Source: Rhodanobacter sp. ANJX3
Lineage (GTDB): Bacteria; Pseudomonadota; Gammaproteobacteria; Xanthomonadales; Rhodanobacteraceae
Direction of reading: 5' to 3'
DNA: 64,000 nt
Assembly (NCBI RefSeq): GCF_014200755.1
Contig: NZ_JACHCM010000001.1
Span: 352,218-416,217 of the forward strand
A program made the translations under genes and the position numbers. This document shows, in pieces, positions 5,710 to 18,396 of this stretch (positions are counted from its first letter, which is position 1; every line of letters begins with the position of its first letter). Under the pieces are notes generated by a model. It made no database searches, was not told the DNA's origin, and worked only from the letters and a program-made list of their open reading frames with translations.

Positions 5710-5991
5710 GTGGCGCGGCGATTTGGAAGGGTTATCGGGGGTGGGGCATACGCTCTCTACGGCCTTTGGTGGGTGCTCTGTTGGGTGTGTTCGCGAGGTC
5801 AGTCAGACCTCTGCTGGCCCGCCTGGCGGCATGCGCATCGTCATTGAATCGGAACGGCCAGGCACGGCTCCGGTGCCGTCGGTGTCCCTTACCAAAGCAC
5901 TGATGAGGCGATCACCTGTGGTCACCTCACCCAGCCATTCAAGCCGTTCTTGATGAAACGTAAACGCCGACTCAATAGAAGTTATGCCTAG

Positions 5992-7140
5992 TTGGGATAT
6001 TCGTCGCAGGGTGCGTCAAGGCAGAATATAGTGGGTCGAAAGGGATCCATCTATCCCAACCCTGGCCCGCGGGCGAACCCTACCAGGGGCCTATACTCAG
6101 GCACCGCGGAACTCATCAACACCACCAAGCACCAGCACTATCTGCCCCAGGTGGAGCAGCGATTGAATGCGGCCAACCCTGGGGCGGCGCGTGACCGACA
6201 GCGGATTTATTCGTTCAAGTTGGTGGACCGCGAGCAACGGACCTTGCAGTTGGAAAACCCAAAGGGCCGTTTGATTTCCGAGAACTCGGCTATCCGTGAT
6301 CTTTTCAGTTTCGATGTGGCACCGGACAACGGCTTGAGGGCCAACTTTGAAACGCTGTTCGGCCGATACGAAGGCGTTGTCAAAGCCACCACAGTGCGAG
6401 TGTTGGATCGCCTGAAGGCAGACGGCGCCGCTTGGGCGAACGGAAGGGATTTCAAAGAGGTGGATCCTTCGTTTCATCAGGATTTGAAGATGCTGTTCAC
6501 CGCGAAGATCTTGAACTTCGCCCGAAACCCCTATTGCGTCGAAAAGGTTCTGAACACATTTGGTGTGCTCGCCAACTATGAGCCGACGTGCCCTCAGAAA
6601 CGCGCTTACTTCGAGCGCATCCTCAACGGACGACGGCCCCATCAGCAATGGCTCTGTCAGGAACTGGGCATCACCGATCAAAACTATGTGGACTGGTTGA
6701 AAGCGCTCTTCATGCTGTTTGTCGAACGTGACAAGGGCGAGGGCGACGAAAACAGCATTCTCGCTGGCATGATGACCAGTCTCTTTGAAGGGCCGCAGGG
6801 TGCGGTGGGCGTCATGATCTGCACCTATGCCGATCCCGTGTGCTTGGTCTCGGATCGCGCATTCAGCACCAGCGTCCGAGAAAATGGGAAAGACGGATTT
6901 GATTTCAATCTGACGTCGCACGCCTTCATTCGCTACGTGTTCGGCCGGTTGGACGCCTTGGTGCCACATGCACCATCGTGGGTCGTGCAGGGCTATCACC
7001 GGCCACCCAACGAGCTGTTTTTTCACCACCGATCGGACGACATGACCCAGCTGGGTGGCTACAACAGAAATGTGATCTATCAGTGTGCCCAGCGTGTTTA
7101 CTCGGCCATGAAGGTGCCGGTGATCCCACCCATGGATTGA
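5992..7140 (+). CDS. DUF4238-type protein, possible defence-island gene
   Basis: The product (up to 382 residues) contains the hallmark KHQHYLPQ near residue 45. Further conserved-looking blocks are FARNPYCVEKVL, a core FVERDKGEGDEN, and a C-terminal YADPVCLVSDRAF segment. The HHYLP-type motif early in the chain is characteristic of DUF4238 proteins, which have no settled function but are often found in variable islands. The start is uncertain. An in-frame TAG at 5989-5991 bounds it, leaving TTG 5992 or GTG 6031 as the only plausible starts before the motif; neither has a strong ribosome site. It is transcribed toward the minus-strand defence block. Confidence 0.6.
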   Translation: MGYSSQGASRQNIVGRKGSIYPNPGPRANPTRGLYSGTAELINTTKHQHYLPQVEQRLNAANPGAARDRQRIYSFKLVDREQRTLQLENPKGRLISENSAIRDLFSFDVAPDNGLRANFETLFGRYEGVVKATTVRVLDRLKADGAAWANGRDFKEVDPSFHQDLKMLFTAKILNFARNPYCVEKVLNTFGVLANYEPTCPQKRAYFERILNGRRPHQQWLCQELGITDQNYVDWLKALFMLFVERDKGEGDENSILAGMMTSLFEGPQGAVGVMICTYADPVCLVSDRAFSTSVRENGKDGFDFNLTSHAFIRYVFGRLDALVPHAPSWVVQGYHRPPNELFFHHRSDDMTQLGGYNRNVIYQCAQRVYSAMKVPVIPPMD

Positions 7141-7894
7141 CCGATCGTTTTGGAACGCCGTGGGAAGTGAATGCCGCTCAAATCGCTGTCTAGATCGGCC
7201 GCCTTCCAACGAAGACGTATTTCGATTGGACGCTGTCGGCGTCCGGAGGATTGACTTAGGGGCGTCGTGATTCGGCGCGCGGGTGTCGGGTGAACAGTGC
7301 GCAAGCAACGTGCGAGTTCACGGTGGATGGTTTCGTCGGTCGTGAAGAGGAAGTCGTTACCATGACCCAAACCAAAGGTGACACAGATGAGTCAGCGGTT
7401 GCAGCCCTTTCCGATGGAAGAGAGAACGATGCGTTGTCCCTTGGCGCAGCGAGGCGTTTGCCTTGTTTACCAGCAGCACCGCGTCAACGGGATCAGCTCG
7501 GCAAGGTCTGGGATCAGCCGTGACGTCGAGTGCGGCGACGAACTCTCCTGTGCCCACGCGGGGGCGCCAGCGTGTCCCGCCCAACAATGCTGAGGGGGCG
7601 TTGACCTCGAGGCACCGTGATGCCAGGCCCACCCGGCTTTTCGTTTCTACCGCGGGAGGGCGCCGGCGCGTCAGGGTGTCGAGTCGGCGACCTTGGGGGC
7701 ATCCGGTGTGGGCGTCGCAACGTCTTGGGATGCAGCCGCGTCACGTTGGATGTGCGGTTCCCCAGGTTCGAAAATCTCGGGGCCCTTTTCTGTTTACGGG
7801 GGGGCTCGCCCGGATTTGGCTGAAGGGACATCGGCACTTCTGCGAAAAACTTGACGATGAGCGAGAGCGATGGCTTCGACGGCGGCGCGCTTGT
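7141..7894. other. Intergenic stretch of 754 bases, no gene recognised
   Basis: Several open frames cross this interval on both strands, but none shows protein-like composition or a good ribosome site. It separates the plus-strand DUF4238-type gene from the converging minus-strand defence block. It may carry decayed sequence from an earlier insertion, but I cannot identify a source. Confidence 0.5.
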
Positions 7895-8671
7895 CTACGC
7901 GGGGGCCTTTTGCGTGAGGTTCAGCGTGATGCCTCCGCGCAAATCATCGCCGCTGAGCCGCCATGCAATGTCTCGCAAAGAGCCCACTTGGAGGGTATGG
8001 GGTCTCGTTCCCCTGGTCTCGGCGTTGAACGCAAACCGATATTCGCTTTGAAAGTCGAATTCTTTGCGCTTTCGCAGCAGCGCCTCTTTCGGAGTGAACT
8101 CACCACTGAACATTTCGGGATCGTAATACTCAACCAATCCGGCGGTGCCCCAATGCCGGTTCCCTTTGATGGTGGCGGCGACCCGATCAATGAAGGGACC
8201 TGCCTGGACCAGCACGACGTGTTCTCCGAACTTGGCAAGGTCCATCGGCACGCGCAGCGACCCGCCGATCACATCGCTTCCGTCCTTCACCACATCCACC
8301 AGGTGGTCGCTGTGCGCCGCGTAAAGACAGAAGAGGTGGACGTCGTTGAGAACCGTAGCTTCGACCTGGAACGGCGCGGCAAGTTGGTTTATGTCGAAAC
8401 TCGTGGTGTCATCGATCGTCACCGTGAGTTTGATGTCCCCCGGTTGTCGCCACGTGACGACGCCCTCGAAGGGGTCGCCACGCGTTTGGCCTTGTGGATC
8501 TTCGATGCCCTTGAAGTAGGACAATCGATTGCACCAGAGCTTTCCATCTAAAAAGGCGTCGGCATGCGCCCCGTCGGTGAACACCTTGATCAAGAAGAAG
8601 ATAGCGCGGCGGCCAGGCTCTTTTGAGTCAAGGGCAGCTTCATCGCGTTCGACACTCATTGTTGCACTCAT
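7895..8671 (-). CDS. Uncharacterised 258-residue protein downstream of Gabija
   Basis: The protein begins after a Ser/Glu-rich leader with FFLIKVFTDGAHADAFLDGK and then NRLSYFKGIEDPQGQ, RGDPFEG and, near the C-terminus, EFDFQSEYRF. The pattern (an early aromatic-Lys segment, a GDPFE motif, a late E-x-x-YRF motif) recalls DUF2971-like proteins. The match is weak and I would not assign a function. There are no membrane segments. A second Met (MSVERD) lies 5 codons in and could also be the start. It follows the HEPN-type gene by 130 bases on the same strand and may be the last gene of an extended Gabija operon. Confidence 0.65.
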   Translation of the reverse strand: MSATMSVERDEAALDSKEPGRRAIFFLIKVFTDGAHADAFLDGKLWCNRLSYFKGIEDPQGQTRGDPFEGVVTWRQPGDIKLTVTIDDTTSFDINQLAAPFQVEATVLNDVHLFCLYAAHSDHLVDVVKDGSDVIGGSLRVPMDLAKFGEHVVLVQAGPFIDRVAATIKGNRHWGTAGLVEYYDPEMFSGEFTPKEALLRKRKEFDFQSEYRFAFNAETRGTRPHTLQVGSLRDIAWRLSGDDLRGGITLNLTQKAPA

Positions 8672-8801
8672 GTTTGGTCGGGATGGCCCGGGAGTCTAAT
8701 GGGCGGCGCACCCCCACTAAAGGTTCGACAAGGCCCCCGCCACGGATTCAGGGGCATTCCGTCGTATGGGGGCAGCGGCCCTTTCAGCACTGCGCTTGGG
8801 C

Positions 8802-10694
8802 TCAACTCCCCACGCCATGACGCCGGAGGCGCTGGTCCACGATGGCGCGAAGTTCTGCATACCGTCCAAAGAGCGGCAGCAGGGCCAGCCGAAACATCAG
8901 CCAACAGGCATAGCGGGCGTCGGCCGAGTAAGGCGTGCCGTCGTTCATCGTTCCATGCGCGACCGCGTGCCGGAGGCCAGGGCCCGATCGCGCCAGGAAA
9001 ACCCGGTCAATATCATCCACGATCGCCTGTCCGAAGATGGTGTTGAGCGTGTCGCGGAGCGTGTCGCGGAGCGTGTCGAACAACTGGGTGATCGACATGT
9101 CTTCCTGCGTGCCTGCCTCTTGGTCGTGACGGACGACATCCACTCCGTGCCCTTTGAGCACGTAGATCAGCGACGCCTCCAGCAGGGGGGTGAGCACCGA
9201 CAAGGCCACCGCCATGTTCCCGTGTAGGAATGCCGTCAAGCCCTTGGCGTAGGTGCGCGTGAGATCGGTCGGCACGAAAGGGCTCTCCCGGCACAGCAGG
9301 AGGAGATCATCTTCGACGATGGGATAGTGCATCGACAGGTTTTGGATGACAACTTTAATTCGACCTTCGACGATGAGGCTGCGGTTGAGCGACTCGGTTT
9401 GGCTGATCCGATGTTCAAGGGCATCGGGTAACGCTTGCCCGGGTAGCGCCCCCGATGCGCGAAACCGCACGTGCCCATCGCTGTCGTGTTGCTGGACGTC
9501 GAGCATCGCGGACAACGGGTTTTGGGCGATGAGCCGCCGCGCGTCTTCTGCCAATTCGTCCGGATCCGGAGAATGAGCCAGATCGGCCAACAGAAACAGC
9601 CCGTCAAACAGCGAGAGGCCTTCCGCTTCGGCGGCCGTCGCTTCGATGATGTCGGAGAGATCGATGGGTTCTTCAAATTGCCCCATCTCATCGTCAATGG
9701 CTTCCTGCTTGCGGATGAGCTCAATGCGAAGGTCCCGCTTGCGCTCCTTGGCCTTCAGCGACCGCAGTCCCCTAAGCAGGTCAATCGCCTGCTGCAACCA
9801 ATGCGATGCATGGAGCGCATGGGCAATGGCTTCGGCATGAGCAGCCAGGATGCTGCTGGCCTGCATGAGGCAGCGTTCGTTGCCCTCAACGCTCTTGGCT
9901 TGCCGCCACGCGTTGGCCGCCAACACAAACGTGTCGCTCTGAACATGTGGATCGCGTTCGGTCCATCCCTCCGCCAGCTTTTCGAGGCGTGTGGCGCAGG
10001 CTTCGGAGTTCCCGAGTTCGAAATCGTAAGCCAGGGTCAGCATGGCCAAGAGACCATCGCGTTGCTCAGTCGCTTCGAAGTAATCCGCCACTTCGAGGAC
10101 AAAGGTGGTGATCGCCGTCAACTCAGGTTCGTTCGGCCGCAGCTGCATGCAGATCTGCAATCCGCGTCGCAAAGCGTCCCGCATGGTGAGGGCTTGGGCG
10201 CCGGGAAACTCGGCGTCCATGGCGTTGACCAGCGTTCCATCGCGCAGGCCCTGGGCAATAGCCAGGTAGGCCACCGCCGCGCCGTGGCCCCCTTGCACGC
10301 GCTTTCGTTCGAGGAACCAGGCGACATCAAGGAGTCGTGCTCGGATCGCTGGGTGGGTTGCGCGTTGTCCGAGGCGTTCCAGGACTGCGACGCTCTCGCC
10401 TTGCCAATCGGCAGGAATGGCCGTTCGACCATCCCCCATCTGCATGTTGGGACCATAAGGGGCTTTCGGCAGATGGAGTTGCTCAAGCATTTGCAGGGCG
10501 GATGAAAGCAAAGCCAGCACGCGCACCCGAGGCACTTGGGTTGCATCGTTTTCCAACGCAGCGCGTTCGTGCGCATACTGCAAGCCGATGGCGTGCGCGG
10601 CCGCTTCCCGGATCGCCACCGCGGGAACGGCAAAGTCGAAGGCTTCGGCATCTTCGATCGTGGCTTGCGCCCATGGGATCAGGCGTTCGGTCAT
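8802..10694 (-). CDS. Large HEPN-type protein (DUF4209-like C-terminus)
   Basis: The 630-residue protein is mostly alpha-helical by composition. Near the end is LRHAVAHG (R575 to H580), an RX4H motif with His directly after Arg. This is the catalytic signature of HEPN RNases, and its position in an LR-x-x-x-AHG context resembles DUF4209 proteins. Upstream helices include the repeat TLRDTLRDTL, encoded by a 12-base tandem repeat at 9045-9078. The start is the ATG at 10694, with GGGAG 8 bases before it, rather than the ATG 8 codons upstream. It follows gajB by 99 bases on the same strand. RNase activity is inference from the motif; many DUF4209 proteins are uncharacterised. Confidence 0.7.
   Translation of the reverse strand: MTERLIPWAQATIEDAEAFDFAVPAVAIREAAAHAIGLQYAHERAALENDATQVPRVRVLALLSSALQMLEQLHLPKAPYGPNMQMGDGRTAIPADWQGESVAVLERLGQRATHPAIRARLLDVAWFLERKRVQGGHGAAVAYLAIAQGLRDGTLVNAMDAEFPGAQALTMRDALRRGLQICMQLRPNEPELTAITTFVLEVADYFEATEQRDGLLAMLTLAYDFELGNSEACATRLEKLAEGWTERDPHVQSDTFVLAANAWRQAKSVEGNERCLMQASSILAAHAEAIAHALHASHWLQQAIDLLRGLRSLKAKERKRDLRIELIRKQEAIDDEMGQFEEPIDLSDIIEATAAEAEGLSLFDGLFLLADLAHSPDPDELAEDARRLIAQNPLSAMLDVQQHDSDGHVRFRASGALPGQALPDALEHRISQTESLNRSLIVEGRIKVVIQNLSMHYPIVEDDLLLLCRESPFVPTDLTRTYAKGLTAFLHGNMAVALSVLTPLLEASLIYVLKGHGVDVVRHDQEAGTQEDMSITQLFDTLRDTLRDTLNTIFGQAIVDDIDRVFLARSGPGLRHAVAHGTMNDGTPYSADARYACWLMFRLALLPLFGRYAELRAIVDQRLRRHGVGS
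9045..9078. repeat. 12-base tandem repeat inside the HEPN-type gene
   Basis: The plus-strand unit GAGCGTGTCGCG is repeated with a period of 12 for 34 bases (about 2.8 copies). In the minus-strand gene it encodes a duplicated TLRD. Being a multiple of three, copy number can change without breaking the frame. Confidence 0.8.
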
Positions 10695-10793
10695 GCAGGA
10701 AGCTCCCGAAAGAAACATGTCGTCATGGATGGAGGGGAGGTGCTCAATGACGTCCCAAATCGCGTCCAGCCGCCGGCCCGGTGTTCGTACAAC

Positions 10794-12518
10794 TCAGATT
10801 TGATTAATGACGGTAGCACTGCCGAAGGACGTGAGGAGCAAGCTCAGTCGTGTCGCTTTGCTCTTGGGGATCGCCATCACCAACAACTGCTGAGCTCTTG
10901 AGGCGGCGACGTAAATCTTGCGTGCGTCCTCTCCGGCCTCAGCACCACCCGCACCCTCCAGATGGGCCAAGATATCGCCTGCCTTTTTGATCGTGAGGAC
11001 AACGCAGACGGCAGGGAACTCCATCCCTTTCGCTGAATGAATGGTGCGTGCCGGATGGAAATCCACTGGCGGGCTCGCCAATGCTGCGCCTAACTTGGCG
11101 TGCGACCTCAGTCTCTGCCCAATCGTTCCGGTGCCGATGAATCCAGGACCCAAGAGGTCGCGGGCGATGGTGAGCCATCCACCAGCATCCATTCCATCCG
11201 CAAACCGCAGAGCAGCAGCAATTTCGATGATTTCGGGCCTCCAGCGACCATCATCGAGGGCATTGGTCGCGACATATTCATGATATTCACCGAGCGACCC
11301 GATCTTATCTTGGATGAGTAGAACTGCACGATGGAGGCCAACGAGCGTCTCACGCCGATTTCCCAGGCCAAAGGAAAAATAAAAATCGGTCACGGCCCTG
11401 GCGAGGACCAGCGTCATGTGCTCGGTCTCCTCAAGTGATGGATGCCCAATCGCTTTGGCGGCGGTTACCAGCCTGGAGGCCAGAACAGGTGCATCTGCAG
11501 ACAAAATCTCGAGCGATTTGGTGATTTCGTTGAATCTCTTGCCAACCGCGTCGGGCACGGCTGTTCCGCCGTATGCCAGGATATAAACCGGAGTTAGGTC
11601 GCCCTTATGTCGTCCAAGCGCTTGATCGGGACTGGCTCGAGAAGCCGGCGGACGCAAAGCGACAATCGCCGAACAGATTGCCGGCGTTGATCGAAAGTTC
11701 CCACTCATCGGCAATCGGTCGCGGGCATCAAAGCGCGCACCGAATTTGTTGAGCTCGTCGGTGACGCCTCCCCGGAACTGATAGATCGACTGATTGGGAT
11801 CGCAGATCACTTTGACGGTCAGACCAGAATCCCGCAGCCATTGAACGATCTCGAGGTCTTCAGGGTTGCAATCCTGAGCCTCGTCAACCACTACCTCTCG
11901 GAAGCGTGCCGCGAGAGCCGTTCCCAATCGACTTGCGAATGCCTTATCACCAAGTCGCACGCGGACGCACTGGCGCACGTCATCGAAGTCCACATGCCCT
12001 TTGGTGAGTGCCGCGGTCAGTACCTTGAGCGCGTGCGCTTCATGGCGCGAAACGTCGCGATCGGCGGGATATCCTAGCTCCGCTGCAACCTGCCGGTTCA
12101 CTTTTCCGGTCTGGCGATCAAATGCACGAAGAGGTAGCGGCTGCATTTTTGGATGCGGTTGAATCTGCCATTCCCGCTTGTCCGGAATGAGGCGCGGAGC
12201 GACCTCACAACCTTCCATGCCGAACGGCGCGACGAAAAACTGCCAGAGGAATCGGTCGAACGTGCCAATGAAGCTCGGAAATAGCGGTGTCGGGAGGATG
12301 TTGAAGCTACGCAGACGGCTTTCAAGCTCATCAACTGCAGCGTTCGTGAAGGACAAGAAGGCTACGCCACGCCGATCGTCGTCATCGGTCATGAGTTGTC
12401 GGGCACGCTCGACCATCGTTCGTGTTTTCCCGGCGCCTGGACAAGCCGTTACGAACGCCGGGCCCTCATGCGCGACAATGGCTTCTTGTTCAGGCGTCGG
12501 CGAATAGGCGTCGGTCAT
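10794..12518 (-). CDS. gajB: Gabija protein GajB, UvrD-like helicase
   Basis: The 574-residue protein shows superfamily 1 helicase motifs in order: Q-motif region TPEQEAIV, Walker A ACPGAGKT (25-32), Walker B VVVDEAQD, DPNQSIYQFRG, GNFRSTP, TIHSAKGMEF and YVAASRAQQ. A compact UvrD-like helicase directly behind an OLD-type nuclease defines Gabija, an anti-phage system in which GajA and GajB assemble and respond to DNA ends and nucleotide depletion. Its ATG overlaps the gajA stop by four bases (ATGA), as expected for coupled translation of complex partners. It is slightly longer than the best-studied GajB. A non-defence repair role is possible but less likely given the partner. Confidence 0.85.
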   Translation of the reverse strand: MTDAYSPTPEQEAIVAHEGPAFVTACPGAGKTRTMVERARQLMTDDDDRRGVAFLSFTNAAVDELESRLRSFNILPTPLFPSFIGTFDRFLWQFFVAPFGMEGCEVAPRLIPDKREWQIQPHPKMQPLPLRAFDRQTGKVNRQVAAELGYPADRDVSRHEAHALKVLTAALTKGHVDFDDVRQCVRVRLGDKAFASRLGTALAARFREVVVDEAQDCNPEDLEIVQWLRDSGLTVKVICDPNQSIYQFRGGVTDELNKFGARFDARDRLPMSGNFRSTPAICSAIVALRPPASRASPDQALGRHKGDLTPVYILAYGGTAVPDAVGKRFNEITKSLEILSADAPVLASRLVTAAKAIGHPSLEETEHMTLVLARAVTDFYFSFGLGNRRETLVGLHRAVLLIQDKIGSLGEYHEYVATNALDDGRWRPEIIEIAAALRFADGMDAGGWLTIARDLLGPGFIGTGTIGQRLRSHAKLGAALASPPVDFHPARTIHSAKGMEFPAVCVVLTIKKAGDILAHLEGAGGAEAGEDARKIYVAASRAQQLLVMAIPKSKATRLSLLLTSFGSATVINQI

Positions 12519-14530
12519 GCCACAACCAACTGTTCGATGGCGGTCGCGATATAGGTTGGGACCGTGAACTCCTCGCCGTCCTCGATCAAGCGAGCGAGGA
12601 TCTGCGCGAAGTCTCCTTTTCGCGCTTTCTTGAAAATCGCATGCACAGCCTTGGCGCGCTCATCGCCCTCGAGCTTTATTGCATTGCGCCATTTCTTTTT
12701 TGATCGTGGATGGAGTTCGAGATATGACTTCTCAAGGATCTCCACGTTTCCTGCTTCGATGAGCTCCGACTCGAGTGAATACGTACTGGTGATAGCGGCG
12801 AAATAGTCGCTCGCCCCCAATTTTCCAACGAGCTTCTCCAGTGACGACTTACGCTGCTCGCCGGGAATGAGCGATTCTTCGACTTCATTCGCCTCCTCCC
12901 CGACGTCTTCAGCGCCTGCTTTGGATGATCCCCTCGGATCCGCTGGCGTTGCGGCTGGCATGCTGGTCGAGGCGGGCGCAGCATCATCCGCGAAGTCGCC
13001 TTCCTCGTCTTCGCCCTCTAATTTGAGCCCCTTATCGCCATCGGTCATCACAACGACACGATCAGCGATACGCACACCATTTAGCTCCGTAAGCAGGAGA
13101 GTCACATAGGGTGCGAAATCGACTCCATCGATCGGCAAAAAGACAGCCGAACGAAACAACCTGAGCTTTTCGGGATGATTCTTGAGCGTATGGTGCTTTG
13201 CGATGGCAGGCAAAAGGAGGGCCTCCGCAATACCTTCCACCAAAAGCGCACGTCCTCCAAACAGCAGTGCCGCCTTCGTCACATCGAGGTAACGGTCGAC
13301 CTTTCGTCGATCAAGAGGCGTAAGCGGCATGTTTGCGAGCGGCAAACATCGGGTTGCACGCCGGGGAACCGTGGCCGAGACGGTGGCTGCCACCGATCCG
13401 GCGCCAGCCTCGCCGCTGGTCATTTTCGAGTCCAATACACTCTCTATGATGCTGGCATCGAGCGATGCCGGCTCGTCCTGCGCGCGCTTCAATCCATTCG
13501 CCGACGAGATCACCGACTTGAACACCACCAATCGATCACTACTCACCCACGCGGAAAGGTGTGGCGAATGCGTGGCCACGACCACTTGCAGCTCACCCGC
13601 CGGCGCATGATCTGCGGGTGGGTTCAAGCGTGAGCGTTCTGCCTGATCCCGGAGGAAGGAAAGAACAGCCGCCTGAAGCTGTGGATGAAGATGGGCTTCA
13701 GGCTCTTCGACGAGGAATAGGGTCAGATCCGCTGTTCGAACTTTTTCGAGTTCGACTGCTATGGTGGCCATGAACAGCAGGTTCGCATACCCGTGACCCG
13801 AATAGCGCAAATCCTCTGGAGCGACGCCGTGATCTGCGAGCTTGAAGCGGAGATCACGGGCGATATCGATTAACGATTCGTCAGAGGCAAACCCGAGCGA
13901 TGCTGTCTGACGCCGCACGCCGCCGGTCAGTGCCGACAATCCCTTCTTCACGGCCAAGTCGACCTTCGTCAGGACGTCATGTCCTCGCGTGCGACCAAGA
14001 TCCTTAGCAAGATCTGCTGCGCTTGTCCCCTCGAGAAAGTGATTGAGGAGCGCCATGATTCGGGTCGGATTGCCCGAGGCGAGCGCGCGCTTGGCGTCAC
14101 GTAGCGTAGGCAGGTAAACATGCCGGATCATTTCATGGCAATCGGGCTCTGGGGCGTTGCCTTCCCTCCCGGCCCATAAGTGCGGCCTTGCGCCGCTGTA
14201 ACCGCCATCAAATCGAAGGCCGAAGCAGACCCTAGCCAAGCTCTCATCGGTAGCGGCCGAAATCAGTCGCCCCTGTTGCCCGGCAGAGAGATCCGCGAAG
14301 TGGGCTTCTAGCTCGAATTGGCTGGCGCCGCACTGGAAACGAACATCGGTCGTTTCACAATAGATTTCTCGACGGCCACTCAATGGCCTCGTCAACAATC
14401 GAATGGCATCGATCGCGTTGCTCTTGCCGCCATTATTCTCACCGACCAGGACAGTTAGATCCTTCTGCAATTCAAACTGTGAAGCATCGAACGATCGGAA
14501 ATTCTCTAATTTAACGCGCTGAAGATACAT
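12515..14530 (-). CDS. gajA: Gabija protein GajA, OLD-family ATPase/TOPRIM nuclease
   Basis: The 671-residue protein starts MYLQRVKLENFRSF, with Walker A GENNGGKS (30-37), a YSGHGYANLLFM signature region, Walker B FLVEEPEAHLHPQLQ and the H-loop ATHSPHLSAW. A TOPRIM domain follows: ALLVEGIAEALLLP (the Glu) and VVMTDGDKG (the DxD). This is the class 2 OLD nuclease layout. The start at 14530 has the strong site GGAAGGGGG; an upstream in-frame start at 14593 lacks one. An acidic, Ala/Pro-rich insert of about 60 residues follows the DxD motif, explaining the extra length compared with GajA of about 580 residues. In known systems GajA nicks DNA when ATP is low. Confidence 0.87.
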   Translation of the reverse strand: MYLQRVKLENFRSFDASQFELQKDLTVLVGENNGGKSNAIDAIRLLTRPLSGRREIYCETTDVRFQCGASQFELEAHFADLSAGQQGRLISAATDESLARVCFGLRFDGGYSGARPHLWAGREGNAPEPDCHEMIRHVYLPTLRDAKRALASGNPTRIMALLNHFLEGTSAADLAKDLGRTRGHDVLTKVDLAVKKGLSALTGGVRRQTASLGFASDESLIDIARDLRFKLADHGVAPEDLRYSGHGYANLLFMATIAVELEKVRTADLTLFLVEEPEAHLHPQLQAAVLSFLRDQAERSRLNPPADHAPAGELQVVVATHSPHLSAWVSSDRLVVFKSVISSANGLKRAQDEPASLDASIIESVLDSKMTSGEAGAGSVAATVSATVPRRATRCLPLANMPLTPLDRRKVDRYLDVTKAALLFGGRALLVEGIAEALLLPAIAKHHTLKNHPEKLRLFRSAVFLPIDGVDFAPYVTLLLTELNGVRIADRVVVMTDGDKGLKLEGEDEEGDFADDAAPASTSMPAATPADPRGSSKAGAEDVGEEANEVEESLIPGEQRKSSLEKLVGKLGASDYFAAITSTYSLESELIEAGNVEILEKSYLELHPRSKKKWRNAIKLEGDERAKAVHAIFKKARKGDFAQILARLIEDGEEFTVPTYIATAIEQLVVA

Positions 14531-15192: not shown

Positions 15193-16302
15193 CTATCGGG
15201 TTTTCTCGGGCGAAGGCTTATCGTCCAGCAGCCGCGCAGCCGGATTCTGGTCGACCGAGCCGGTCTGGAAATAGCCCATCACGCTGGACACCGCACGATG
15301 CTCAGTCATCGCCATGATCGCCGGCAGCGACACCCCCTGGCGACTGGCCTCAGTCACGAAGCCAGACCGCAGGCTGTGCCCACCAAAGTCCCCGTCGAGA
15401 CCCGCAAGCTTGGCACGTCGCTGCACGATTTCGCCCACGGCTGCCGGAGAGAGGGCAGAGCCGACGCGGTGTTTCCATAGACGCCGAAAAAGCGCCCCCT
15501 CGTCGATACCTGCTGCTACCAACCAGGCCTCTAACGCTTGGCCGGCGCGATCCAGAACGGGCTTATCCGGCGTTGAGGATGACGTGACGCCTGCTTGCTG
15601 CGTTTTGCTGTGCTCCAGACGGTAGATGAAGCCCTGCGGACCGATCCGGCGGAGGTCGCGCAGGTCGGCCGCCGCCACCTCGCTGCGTCGGCGTCCGCCG
15701 CTGGCGAAGCCAAAGCAGAGCAGGGCGCGATCACGTAGACCCTCGAGGCTGTCGTCGCAGGTCGCCAGCATGGCTTCGAGCTCGGCCAATGTGATGGCGG
15801 TCTTCTTGCGCGGCCGCTCACCGCGCTTGACCGCCGCGCGGGCGGCCCGACTGAGTACCGTGCGGATCGCCGGTTGTTCGCACGGATTGGTCGCATGCTT
15901 GAGTCGATGTGCCGTCGACAGCACGGCAACCCGGTGGCGGACCGTGGCCAGCGTCCACGGTCCGAGCTTGGCCTTGAGGCCAGCGGCCACCAGGGCATGG
16001 TCGACGGCAGGCGGCAATTCCCAGGCGAGCTCGCCGTCGGCCGAGCGCCGCACCACATTATCGACCACAAACTGCAGCACGGTGGCTTCGGGCACTGGTA
16101 GCGTTATTTCAATGCCGTAGCGCGCCGCGTGCCAGCCGGCCCAGTAGCGCAAGGCGCTGGCGTAGCTGCGCGTGGTGTTAGCGGCGGCCGCTTCAGCTAG
16201 CAATTCGCGCACGGCATCGGCAGCTTGCTGAGCTAGCTGGATCGGCAGCGCCAAGCTGGAGGCTGGTTCGCTAAGTGTGGCGATTGTGGAATTTTCTTTC
16301 AT
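15193..16302 (-). CDS. Tyrosine recombinase/integrase
   Basis: The 369-residue protein has an N-terminal SAM-like DNA-binding region (about 25-135). Its catalytic domain carries the full pentad: R in GGRRRSE (205/206), K233 in HSKTQQ, H309 and R312 in HSLRSG, H335 in TEHRAVSS and nucleophile Y344 in VMGYFQTG. It is an intact enzyme of the XerC/phage-integrase family, likely responsible for moving the accessory segment. It is divergent from the KfrA-like gene with 105 bases between the starts. A short AT-rich word (ATATTATGT) overlaps its start and recurs at 18298. Confidence 0.9.
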   Translation of the reverse strand: MKENSTIATLSEPASSLALPIQLAQQAADAVRELLAEAAAANTTRSYASALRYWAGWHAARYGIEITLPVPEATVLQFVVDNVVRRSADGELAWELPPAVDHALVAAGLKAKLGPWTLATVRHRVAVLSTAHRLKHATNPCEQPAIRTVLSRAARAAVKRGERPRKKTAITLAELEAMLATCDDSLEGLRDRALLCFGFASGGRRRSEVAAADLRDLRRIGPQGFIYRLEHSKTQQAGVTSSSTPDKPVLDRAGQALEAWLVAAGIDEGALFRRLWKHRVGSALSPAAVGEIVQRRAKLAGLDGDFGGHSLRSGFVTEASRQGVSLPAIMAMTEHRAVSSVMGYFQTGSVDQNPAARLLDDKPSPEKTR

Positions 16303-16407: not shown

Positions 16408-17349
16408 ATGGGCAAAGGCATCACCCAAGAACAGGTAAACGCTGCTGCGGATGCGCTGGTCACCGCCGGCGAGCGGCCGACGGTCGAGAAAATTCGAGCG
16501 CAGCTGGGCACCGGCTCGCCCAACACGGTGCTCCGGATGCTGGAAACGTGGCGCGGCGCGCTGGCCGAACGCCTCCATCAGGTACTGTCGTTACCGGATG
16601 TGCCGGCGGAAGTAGGGCAGGCGTTTACGGAGTGTTGGCGCTTGGCCATAGCTCATGCCAATTCCGCGGCGCAAGCCTCCCTGGCACAAGAGCAAAACGC
16701 CCTTCTCGCGACCCAGACCTCACTGATGCAAGAACGAAAGGTCTATGAGAACGCGGTTGCCGCCGCCCAGGAATTGGCCCAGGGCGCGGACCAGGCCCGC
16801 GAGATCGCCGAAACGCGGCTGGTCGACGTCCAACGTCTCGTGGAGCAACAAGCGGGCCAACTGACTGAACTCCTGCAGCAACGCGATGGTTTGCAACAAC
16901 GGGCGGATCAGCTTGCCGATTCGTTAGAAAAACACAAAAGCGTCGCAGCGACCGAACGCGAGGCCCAGGTGGCGCACATTCGCGCCATCGAGGATCGTGC
17001 CCATGCTGAAATTGATCGCGCCCGCGAAGAAACGAAGTCCCTGCAGGCAGCATTACGCCAGAAGGAACGGGACGCATTGACTTTAGCCGCACGGCTAGAA
17101 TCGGTGGTAGTTTCGACTCGTGCTGCAGAGAATCTGGCCTCCGAGTATGGAGCTCGCGCAAAAGCGTTGGAGCAGCAATTAGGACGAATGGATGGCCTTT
17201 CCGCCGCTTTGCTTGCCGCTCAAAAGTCTTTACACGCCGCTACTCAGCGGGAAACTGCGCTACGAGGCAAATTGGATGATCTAACCTTGGCAGCTAAAAA
17301 GCCAACAACCGGAAAACGAAAAGCGCGAGTTGCCTCAGCAGCGAGCTAG
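16408..17349 (+). CDS. KfrA-like DNA-binding coiled-coil protein
   Basis: The 313-residue protein has an N-terminal helix-turn-helix domain of the KfrA N-terminal type: ITQEQVNAAADAL, RPTVEKIRAQLGTGSPNTV (residues 5-45). A long heptad-rich coiled coil (about 85-290) follows, then a basic tail (KRKARV). KfrA proteins are plasmid-encoded DNA-binding repressors or stability factors. Chromosomal relatives often stand beside tyrosine recombinases in integrative elements. Its divergent placement suggests it regulates the recombinase promoter or helps element maintenance; this is inference from context. Confidence 0.8.
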   Translation: MGKGITQEQVNAAADALVTAGERPTVEKIRAQLGTGSPNTVLRMLETWRGALAERLHQVLSLPDVPAEVGQAFTECWRLAIAHANSAAQASLAQEQNALLATQTSLMQERKVYENAVAAAQELAQGADQAREIAETRLVDVQRLVEQQAGQLTELLQQRDGLQQRADQLADSLEKHKSVAATEREAQVAHIRAIEDRAHAEIDRAREETKSLQAALRQKERDALTLAARLESVVVSTRAAENLASEYGARAKALEQQLGRMDGLSAALLAAQKSLHAATQRETALRGKLDDLTLAAKKPTTGKRKARVASAAS

Positions 17350-17879: not shown

Positions 17880-18396
17880 GTCAGGACTCCGTCAACTGGG
17901 AACAGGCGGTATGGTGATCCTACTCTGCTTGAATCAAGTCATCATAGAAGGATGGCCGCTATAACCCGCAGAGCCGCACAATGTTTCCTTATCACGATTT
18001 CCTGCAAGACCGGAAGCGGGCGCGCTGATTTCTGAATTAAATCATTGTATGGCGCGAACAACTCGAGCAGTCTGGCACTCCAGTTCGTTATCCGCTGCCT
18101 AAGTTTTACTGCGGCACATTCTCAGGTGAGGGAGTCTCTCTGCAGACATTCCGCGCTGTAGAACTTTGTCTGGGCCATTTGCTTATGGTTTCTGCCGTGG
18201 GAGTAGAACTCGATGTGCGCAGAACAGCGGTCGAAGCCAGCCTGCGAGGTCGACGTGACGCAGACAGTTTCGCTGCCGACTTAATTTCGCATAATGTATA
18301 TTATGTCAAATCGCATTTTTATGCTTAGCGAGCTATTTCGACCCAACTGCTGCCTGGGATTGCCCTGGCGGTGTTCGTCTGCGGACCTTGGTTGCA
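17880..18396. other. Non-coding stretch of 517 bases at the presumed island edge
   Basis: I see no credible gene. The stretch is AT-richer than its flanks and carries the inverted repeat at 18283-18312. It separates the mobile-element genes from chromosomal-looking genes. Confidence 0.5.
18283..18312. repeat. Inverted repeat, possible recombination core site
   Basis: The arms AATTTCGCATAAT and ATTATGTCAAATC flank a 4-base spacer GTAT. The inner CATAAT/ATTATG pair is perfect and 10 of 13 arm positions are symmetric. Size and geometry (13-base arms, short spacer) fit the core of a tyrosine-recombinase site. The word ATATTATGT (18298-18306) also occurs at 16301-16309, over the recombinase start. 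An operator is the alternative reading. Confidence 0.45.

Follow-up and report, generated by a model that had tools for sequence, protein, structure and literature searches.

Gabija and a PDC-S39-type gene as probable stacked, independently acquired defence cargo beside a recombinase-KfrA module near a dif-type site in Rhodanobacter sp. ANJX3

Gene content of the locus

In a stretch of 64,000 nucleotides from Rhodanobacter sp. ANJX3 (contig NZ_JACHCM010000001.1, positions 352,218 to 416,217; hereafter the window), four genes, here designated gajA, gajB, p630 and p258, lie head to tail in that order on the minus strand. The genes gajA and gajB are adjacent and overlap by 4 bases, and gaps of 99 and 130 bases separate gajB from p630 and p630 from p258, respectively. 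These coordinates agree with an earlier sequence-only reading, in which p630 and p258 had been interpreted either as a second, RNA-cleaving arm of a Gabija system or as a separate two-gene defence system beside it.

gajA (14530-12515, minus strand): 671 amino acids (aa), ABC-type ATPase with an OLD-like TOPRIM region; an alternative upstream TTG start would give 692 aa
gajB (12518-10794, minus strand): 574 aa, UvrD-like helicase
p630 (10694-8802, minus strand): 630 aa, PDC-S39-type protein with a DUF7380 N-terminal domain and a DUF4209-like (HEPN) C terminus; 638 aa if started at an in-frame ATG 24 bases further upstream
p258 (8671-7895, minus strand): 258 aa, accessory gene matching PHROG 26561

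Gabija systems combine an ATPase/nuclease with a helicase. GajA matched the PADLOC model PDLC00100 (1017.5 bits) and GajB the model PDLC00149 (E-value 1.1e-242), both over nearly their full length; at the domain level, GajA matched AAA_15 (1.2e-27) and OLD-like_TOPRIM (1e-4, just at the cut-off of 23.2 bits), and GajB matched UvrD-helicase (6.1e-27). Based on these profile matches, which confirm the earlier identification, and on the position of the helicase gene, adjoining gajA on the same strand and overlapping it, the pair is an ordinary Gabija system. It differs from the systems compared in having p630 and p258 behind it, neither of which was found beside relatives of gajAB.

The reading that we favour, and hold with good confidence, is that the cluster represents stacked, independently acquired defence cargo beside a recombinase-KfrA module near a dif-type site, p630 being a putative stand-alone HEPN ribonuclease (RNase).

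Family and C terminus of p630

The product of p630 matched the PADLOC candidate PDC-S39 (PDLC05012) with an E-value of 2.2e-80 over residues 51-618 of its 638-aa reading, and its N-terminal third corresponded to Pfam DUF7380 (1e-42). The S in PDC-S39 presumably stands for single. The candidate is listed among the systems predicted in PA01, according to an excerpt of the source. In an alignment of 33 sequences (the window p630 and 32 relatives with 22-49% identity to it), all members matched DUF7380, and a few also matched TPR-like models weakly.

C-terminal HEPN-like region of p630, residues 506-608 (8871-9179, minus strand): approximate, based on the DUF4209 match and conserved positions, with coordinates calculated from residue numbers

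The DUF4209 match of p630 spanned residues 538-602, and the conserved positions of the alignment ran from E506 to W598. The motif RHAVAH (R575-H580) is the RX4H motif that the sequence-only reading had pointed out as a sign of HEPN, and R575, H576 and H580 were identical in 33 of 33 sequences, as were E506 and a YACW block. The excerpted parts of a 2013 study (PMC3710099) name DUF4209 among new HEPN families, give as the chief HEPN motif Rx4-6H in which a polar residue follows R, often accompanied upstream by an Ex3[KR] element, and describe C6orf70, which overlaps DUF4209, as occurring in restriction-related operons and in fusion with TPR. The p630 family shares with the DUF4209/C6orf70 family the Rx4H motif, the polar residue after R and the conserved upstream E; it differs in that the window p630 scores below the Pfam cut-off and in that DUF7380 is not named in those excerpts. 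The match and the motif conservation uphold the earlier suggestion, and the C terminus of p630 is probably of HEPN type.

Three results weigh against a HEPN RNase. The DUF4209 match of the window p630 was sub-threshold (E-value 0.0021, 18.5 bits vs. a cut-off of 22.3); position 510, within the Ex3[KR] element, is I in the window p630, where 29 of the 33 sequences have R (I in three, this one included, and V in one); and hhalign found no similarity between the p630 C terminus and two other HEPN-type proteins, a test of single sequences that says little. The first two results, together with the lack of a credible match to p630 in a profile search of solved structures, would suit a protein that is HEPN-like without being an enzyme, or not HEPN at all. 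This alternative was considered improbable, given the residues invariant across the whole alignment and the detection of DUF4209 at an E-value of 0.1 or better in 28 of the 33 members (window included; best 1.9e-7).

Distribution of gajAB, p630 and p258

Co-occurrence was evaluated by tblastn with the window genes. Among 165 plasmid records with a gajA match, eight covered at least 80% of the query, and p630 and p258 were absent from the flanks (7-9 kilobases, kb) of all eight, two of which were unannotated and were checked by tblastn only. The genes downstream of gajB in the annotated plasmid relatives were varied. In a Sphingobium plasmid (L012, 12778-15321), Gabija has behind it an AbiGi-family gene and a gene for a 641-aa protein with no Pfam match; in Paraburkholderia it is followed by a 163-aa protein and a large nSTAND3 protein (L013, 13461-17444). 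Neither gene was found beside Gabija in three remote loci of the same order.

The converse comparison gave a similar picture. Among 54 p630-family loci from the genome contigs, 38 of which extended 5 kb or more to both sides, a gajAB-like pair was present in one (L039, about 2 kb from p630 and on the other strand), and none had p258. Likewise, neither gajAB nor p630 was detected in ten p258 loci (eight of nine plasmid records and two of two viral contigs, with the plasmid match H25 outside the examined set). In a set of 56 p630 loci (53 of the 54, L078 being dropped, plus L016, L020 and L021), 33 had no same-strand open reading frame (ORF) of at least 100 aa within 150 bases, and the largest recurring neighbour family comprised four loci. 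In the sampled genomes, p630 was found in 5 of 250 in the order and 2 of 398 in the phylum, own genome included, and p258 in 1 of 250 and 1 of 398, in both cases the genome of the window itself. Single-sequence scans of the genome contigs with p630, and of the viral contigs with p630, p258 and gajA, gave no match. Searches with p630 also matched 21 plasmid and two phage records, of which H1, H2, H31 and H32 were examined. Relatives of p630 with an interrupted reading frame were observed in L051, L058 and L079.

In addition to the bacterial loci, relatives of p630 were found in P2-type phages. The alignment of ORF612 of P2-EC46 covered 84% of p630 (23% identity), and close relatives of ORF612 were present in 20 of 5426 complete Escherichia coli genomes (the 12 listed of these 20 were annotated as DUF7380). 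The one E. coli copy examined lies in a P2-type prophage, between the replication gene A and the portal gene, and is followed by two small hypothetical genes; this setting differs from that of the window p630, behind gajAB. In the P2-like phage 569R9, a p630 relative is likewise situated between gpA and the portal gene, a position of P2-like phages described as a defence hotspot in the excerpted part of PMC9122126. No literature naming DUF7380 or P2-EC46 was found.

These distributions bear on both earlier interpretations of the cluster. In the first, GajAB would trigger p630 as a second arm that cuts RNA, and p258 would serve as regulator or antitoxin. The common strand, the short gaps and the HEPN-type motif of p630 agree with such an extended Gabija, and neither a promoter-like nor a terminator-like site, which the sequence-only reading had named as a sign that the genes are separate, was seen in either gap in a sequence scan, such scans being weak evidence (candidate terminators: z of -1.27 with 22 of 200 shuffles folding equally well in the first gap; z of 2.75 with 200 of 200 in the second). 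The proposal was nevertheless rated very unlikely and was abandoned: the near-full-length plasmid relatives of Gabija carry neither gene and vary in what follows gajB, a single p630 locus has any gajAB-like pair nearby, and P2-type phages hold p630 relatives without gajAB. As far as the comparisons reach, relatives of the added genes are thus not linked to gajAB elsewhere, the outcome that the same reading had said would count against it.

In the second interpretation, p630 and p258 would form a two-gene system of their own, such as a HEPN RNase plus a partner of neutralising or modifying function, as their adjacency on one strand with a 130-base gap might suggest. The three nearest p630 relatives (L028-L030, L003 being the same place as L030) share one upstream neighbour, which in L030 has a weak, sub-threshold RiboL-PSP-HEPN match and is possibly a second HEPN gene, so partners may exist in some lineages. 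This neighbour is a protein other than p258, none of the 54 p630 loci or the ten p258 loci holds the two genes together, and 33 of the 56 p630 genes have no close same-strand neighbour; we therefore give this arrangement as little credence as the first.

Several observations weigh against independent acquisition of the four genes. The evidence for it rests on relatives at 22-50% identity, as no p258 relative and no close p630 relative turned up in the same family, and the tblastn searches could have missed very distant relatives (e.g. of Gabija). A close same-strand neighbour is present in 23 of the 56 p630 loci, and the neighbour shared by L028-L030 points in the same direction. Moreover, because they lie on one strand with short gaps lacking a terminator-like site, the four genes may be co-transcribed in this strain, or may have been coupled later in this lineage.

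The p258 gene

The earlier description of p258 as a protein of no recognised family held for Pfam, NCBIfam and PADLOC, none of which gave a match, and not for PHROG, where family 26561, of unknown function, was matched with an E-value of 1.3e-21. A profile search of solved structures gave no credible match to p258. Assignment to DUF2971 (PF11185) was rejected: p258 itself had no match, one of eight aligned members reached an E-value of 0.6, and none was found in the own genome; no literature on DUF2971 with phage was found either. A role of p258 as antitoxin of p630 was set aside in view of the distribution of the two genes.

Relatives of p258 occurred on plasmids and viral contigs, and the phage records searched with p258 gave no match. 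One locus adjoins a BsuBI/PstI restriction system. The two viral relatives (L082, 5995-6714; L083, 5992-6714) occupy an equivalent place in two related viral contigs, with surroundings that look like a prophage tail-gene region. In Aquicella (L025, 2872-6642), an AbiJ_NTD4 protein, a KfrA gene, a tyrosine recombinase and a p258 relative lie in a row. An interrupted p258 relative in L023 was excluded from the alignments.

The recombinase-KfrA module and its cargo

Beside gajA, the window contains two divergent genes that recur in related genomes:

tyrosine recombinase (15193-16302, minus strand): Phage_integrase match, 1.2e-13
KfrA_N DNA-binding protein (16408-17349, plus strand): KfrA_N match, 8.8e-23

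Of 31 genomes sampled from the family, 12 gave a match to the recombinase, the window's own genome among them. Thirteen related loci were compared, comprising those of 11 other genomes reached through the recombinase (L109-L119) and two reached through gajA and p630 (L103 and L104); a second, partial recombinase match in genome G060 (L102) lies outside this wider comparison. A KfrA match adjoined the recombinase in all 13 loci, and the ORFs behind the recombinase differed among them. In L103, a complete Gabija system (GajA 8.1e-203; GajB 1232 bits) without p630 comes first behind the recombinase, and in L104 the same place is held by a PDC-S39 gene (5.1e-100) without Gabija. Because they were found through gajA and p630 themselves, these two loci show separate occurrence and give no frequency.

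The scan with PADLOC and Pfam covered selected cargo genes of each locus. Among the 11 loci found through the recombinase, strong matches to known systems were obtained in three (CBASS cyclase and TRIP13 in L109, Lamassu in L110 and SIR2-HerA in L112), and E1-E2/JAB matches of about 1e-20 to 1e-23 in two (L111 and L117). The cargo of another three was suggestive: a helicase with part matches to Hachiman models in L114, an LA2681-type HEPN protein in L113 and an nSTAND3 protein in L119, the last being large and situated behind the recombinase at 5925-10175. Assignment of L114 to Hachiman is doubtful, since its helicase gave only partial matches to HamB models, and no match of any kind was obtained for the gene after it. 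In L115, L116 and L118, no defence match was found among the genes tested.

Direct repeats considered as att sites belonged to short, chance-like families only, and an empty-site comparison, in which a flanking gene was searched in 20 relatives, gave no match at an E-value of 1e-40. No title or abstract on such a module was found in the literature, a weak sign of novelty, as most subscription papers fell outside the search.

The dif-type site and the replication terminus

On the KfrA side of the module, 0.9 kb from the KfrA gene, a further feature was identified:

dif-type site (18283-18311, plus strand): AATTTCGCATAATGTATATTATGTCAAAT, matched nowhere else in the genome with up to 3 mismatches

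The reversed control had no match in the whole genome at that threshold. We take the site to resemble E. coli dif. Among the stretches sampled, GC skew was positive in seven of the nine left of the site and negative in all 11 right of it, and the cumulative GC skew along the window reaches its maximum at 10,869; since the skew changes sign at the dif-type site, the window probably spans the replication terminus.

With a tolerance of up to 5 mismatches over 29 bases, a dif-type site was present in eight of the 13 loci (L103, L104, L109, L110, L112, L113, L114 and L117), always on the KfrA side. L111 had a half-site match, and L115, L116, L118 and L119 had none at the same tolerance. The site is common to L103, L104, L109, L110 and L117 with 91-97% identity over 27-35 bases, while most of the intervening DNA is unlike. 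Its orientation relative to the recombinase was as in the window in four loci (L103, L109, L113 and L117) and opposite in the other four (L104, L110, L112 and L114). This mixed orientation argues against a simple, fixed insertion at dif. Even with 9 mismatches allowed, the window showed no second dif-type site, and no far end of the module was found. The module lies close to dif, and insertion there by this recombinase is putative only.

Accessory genes at chromosomal dif are described for IMEX elements (LME-1, the gonococcal island and EludIMEX-1) in the excerpted parts of PMC9765430 and PMC5357621. The window resembles these elements in having accessory genes next to a chromosomal dif site. 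It falls outside the IMEX definition, in which host Xer is used and no own recombinase is present, because it encodes its own tyrosine recombinase (15193-16302), has a single dif-type copy and belongs to loci of variable site orientation.

Implications

In the favoured reading, the cluster would be a small defence island in which side-by-side genes were acquired separately. A stand-alone, abortive-infection-type protein would be encoded by p630: with its long and probably helical N-terminal part it would detect a cue of infection, upon which the C-terminal HEPN domain, probably dimeric, would cut RNA through the R575/H576/H580 site. The p258 gene would be an independent accessory gene. All would have been assembled as cargo beside the tyrosine recombinase-KfrA module near dif, whose defence neighbours vary from genome to genome.

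A broader and more tentative reading, possible rather than probable, is that recombinase-KfrA pairs are mobile or hotspot-forming modules parked by dif, where chromosome dimers are resolved, in this bacterial family, swapping entire anti-phage systems at a single position behind the recombinase. The systems swapped might include Gabija, PDC-S39, CBASS, Lamassu, SIR2-HerA and others, with the four-gene cluster of the window as a stacked example, a suggestion that we make with the same reserve. The even split in site orientation lowers the chances of this exchange.

With the extended Gabija dropped, a single, testable protein takes its place. The candidate family to which p630 belongs, PDC-S39, is represented in many Proteobacteria as well as in P2-type prophages of E. 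coli, and the predicted active site of p630 is open to mutation. The recombinase module is a more interesting lead than the four-gene cluster itself. The recombinase-KfrA-dif arrangement may explain why unrelated defence genes stand in an apparent operon, and it could serve as a marker for finding defence cargo without prior knowledge of the systems. If the exchange reading is true, the replication terminus would be a site of defence-gene exchange with its own recombinase.

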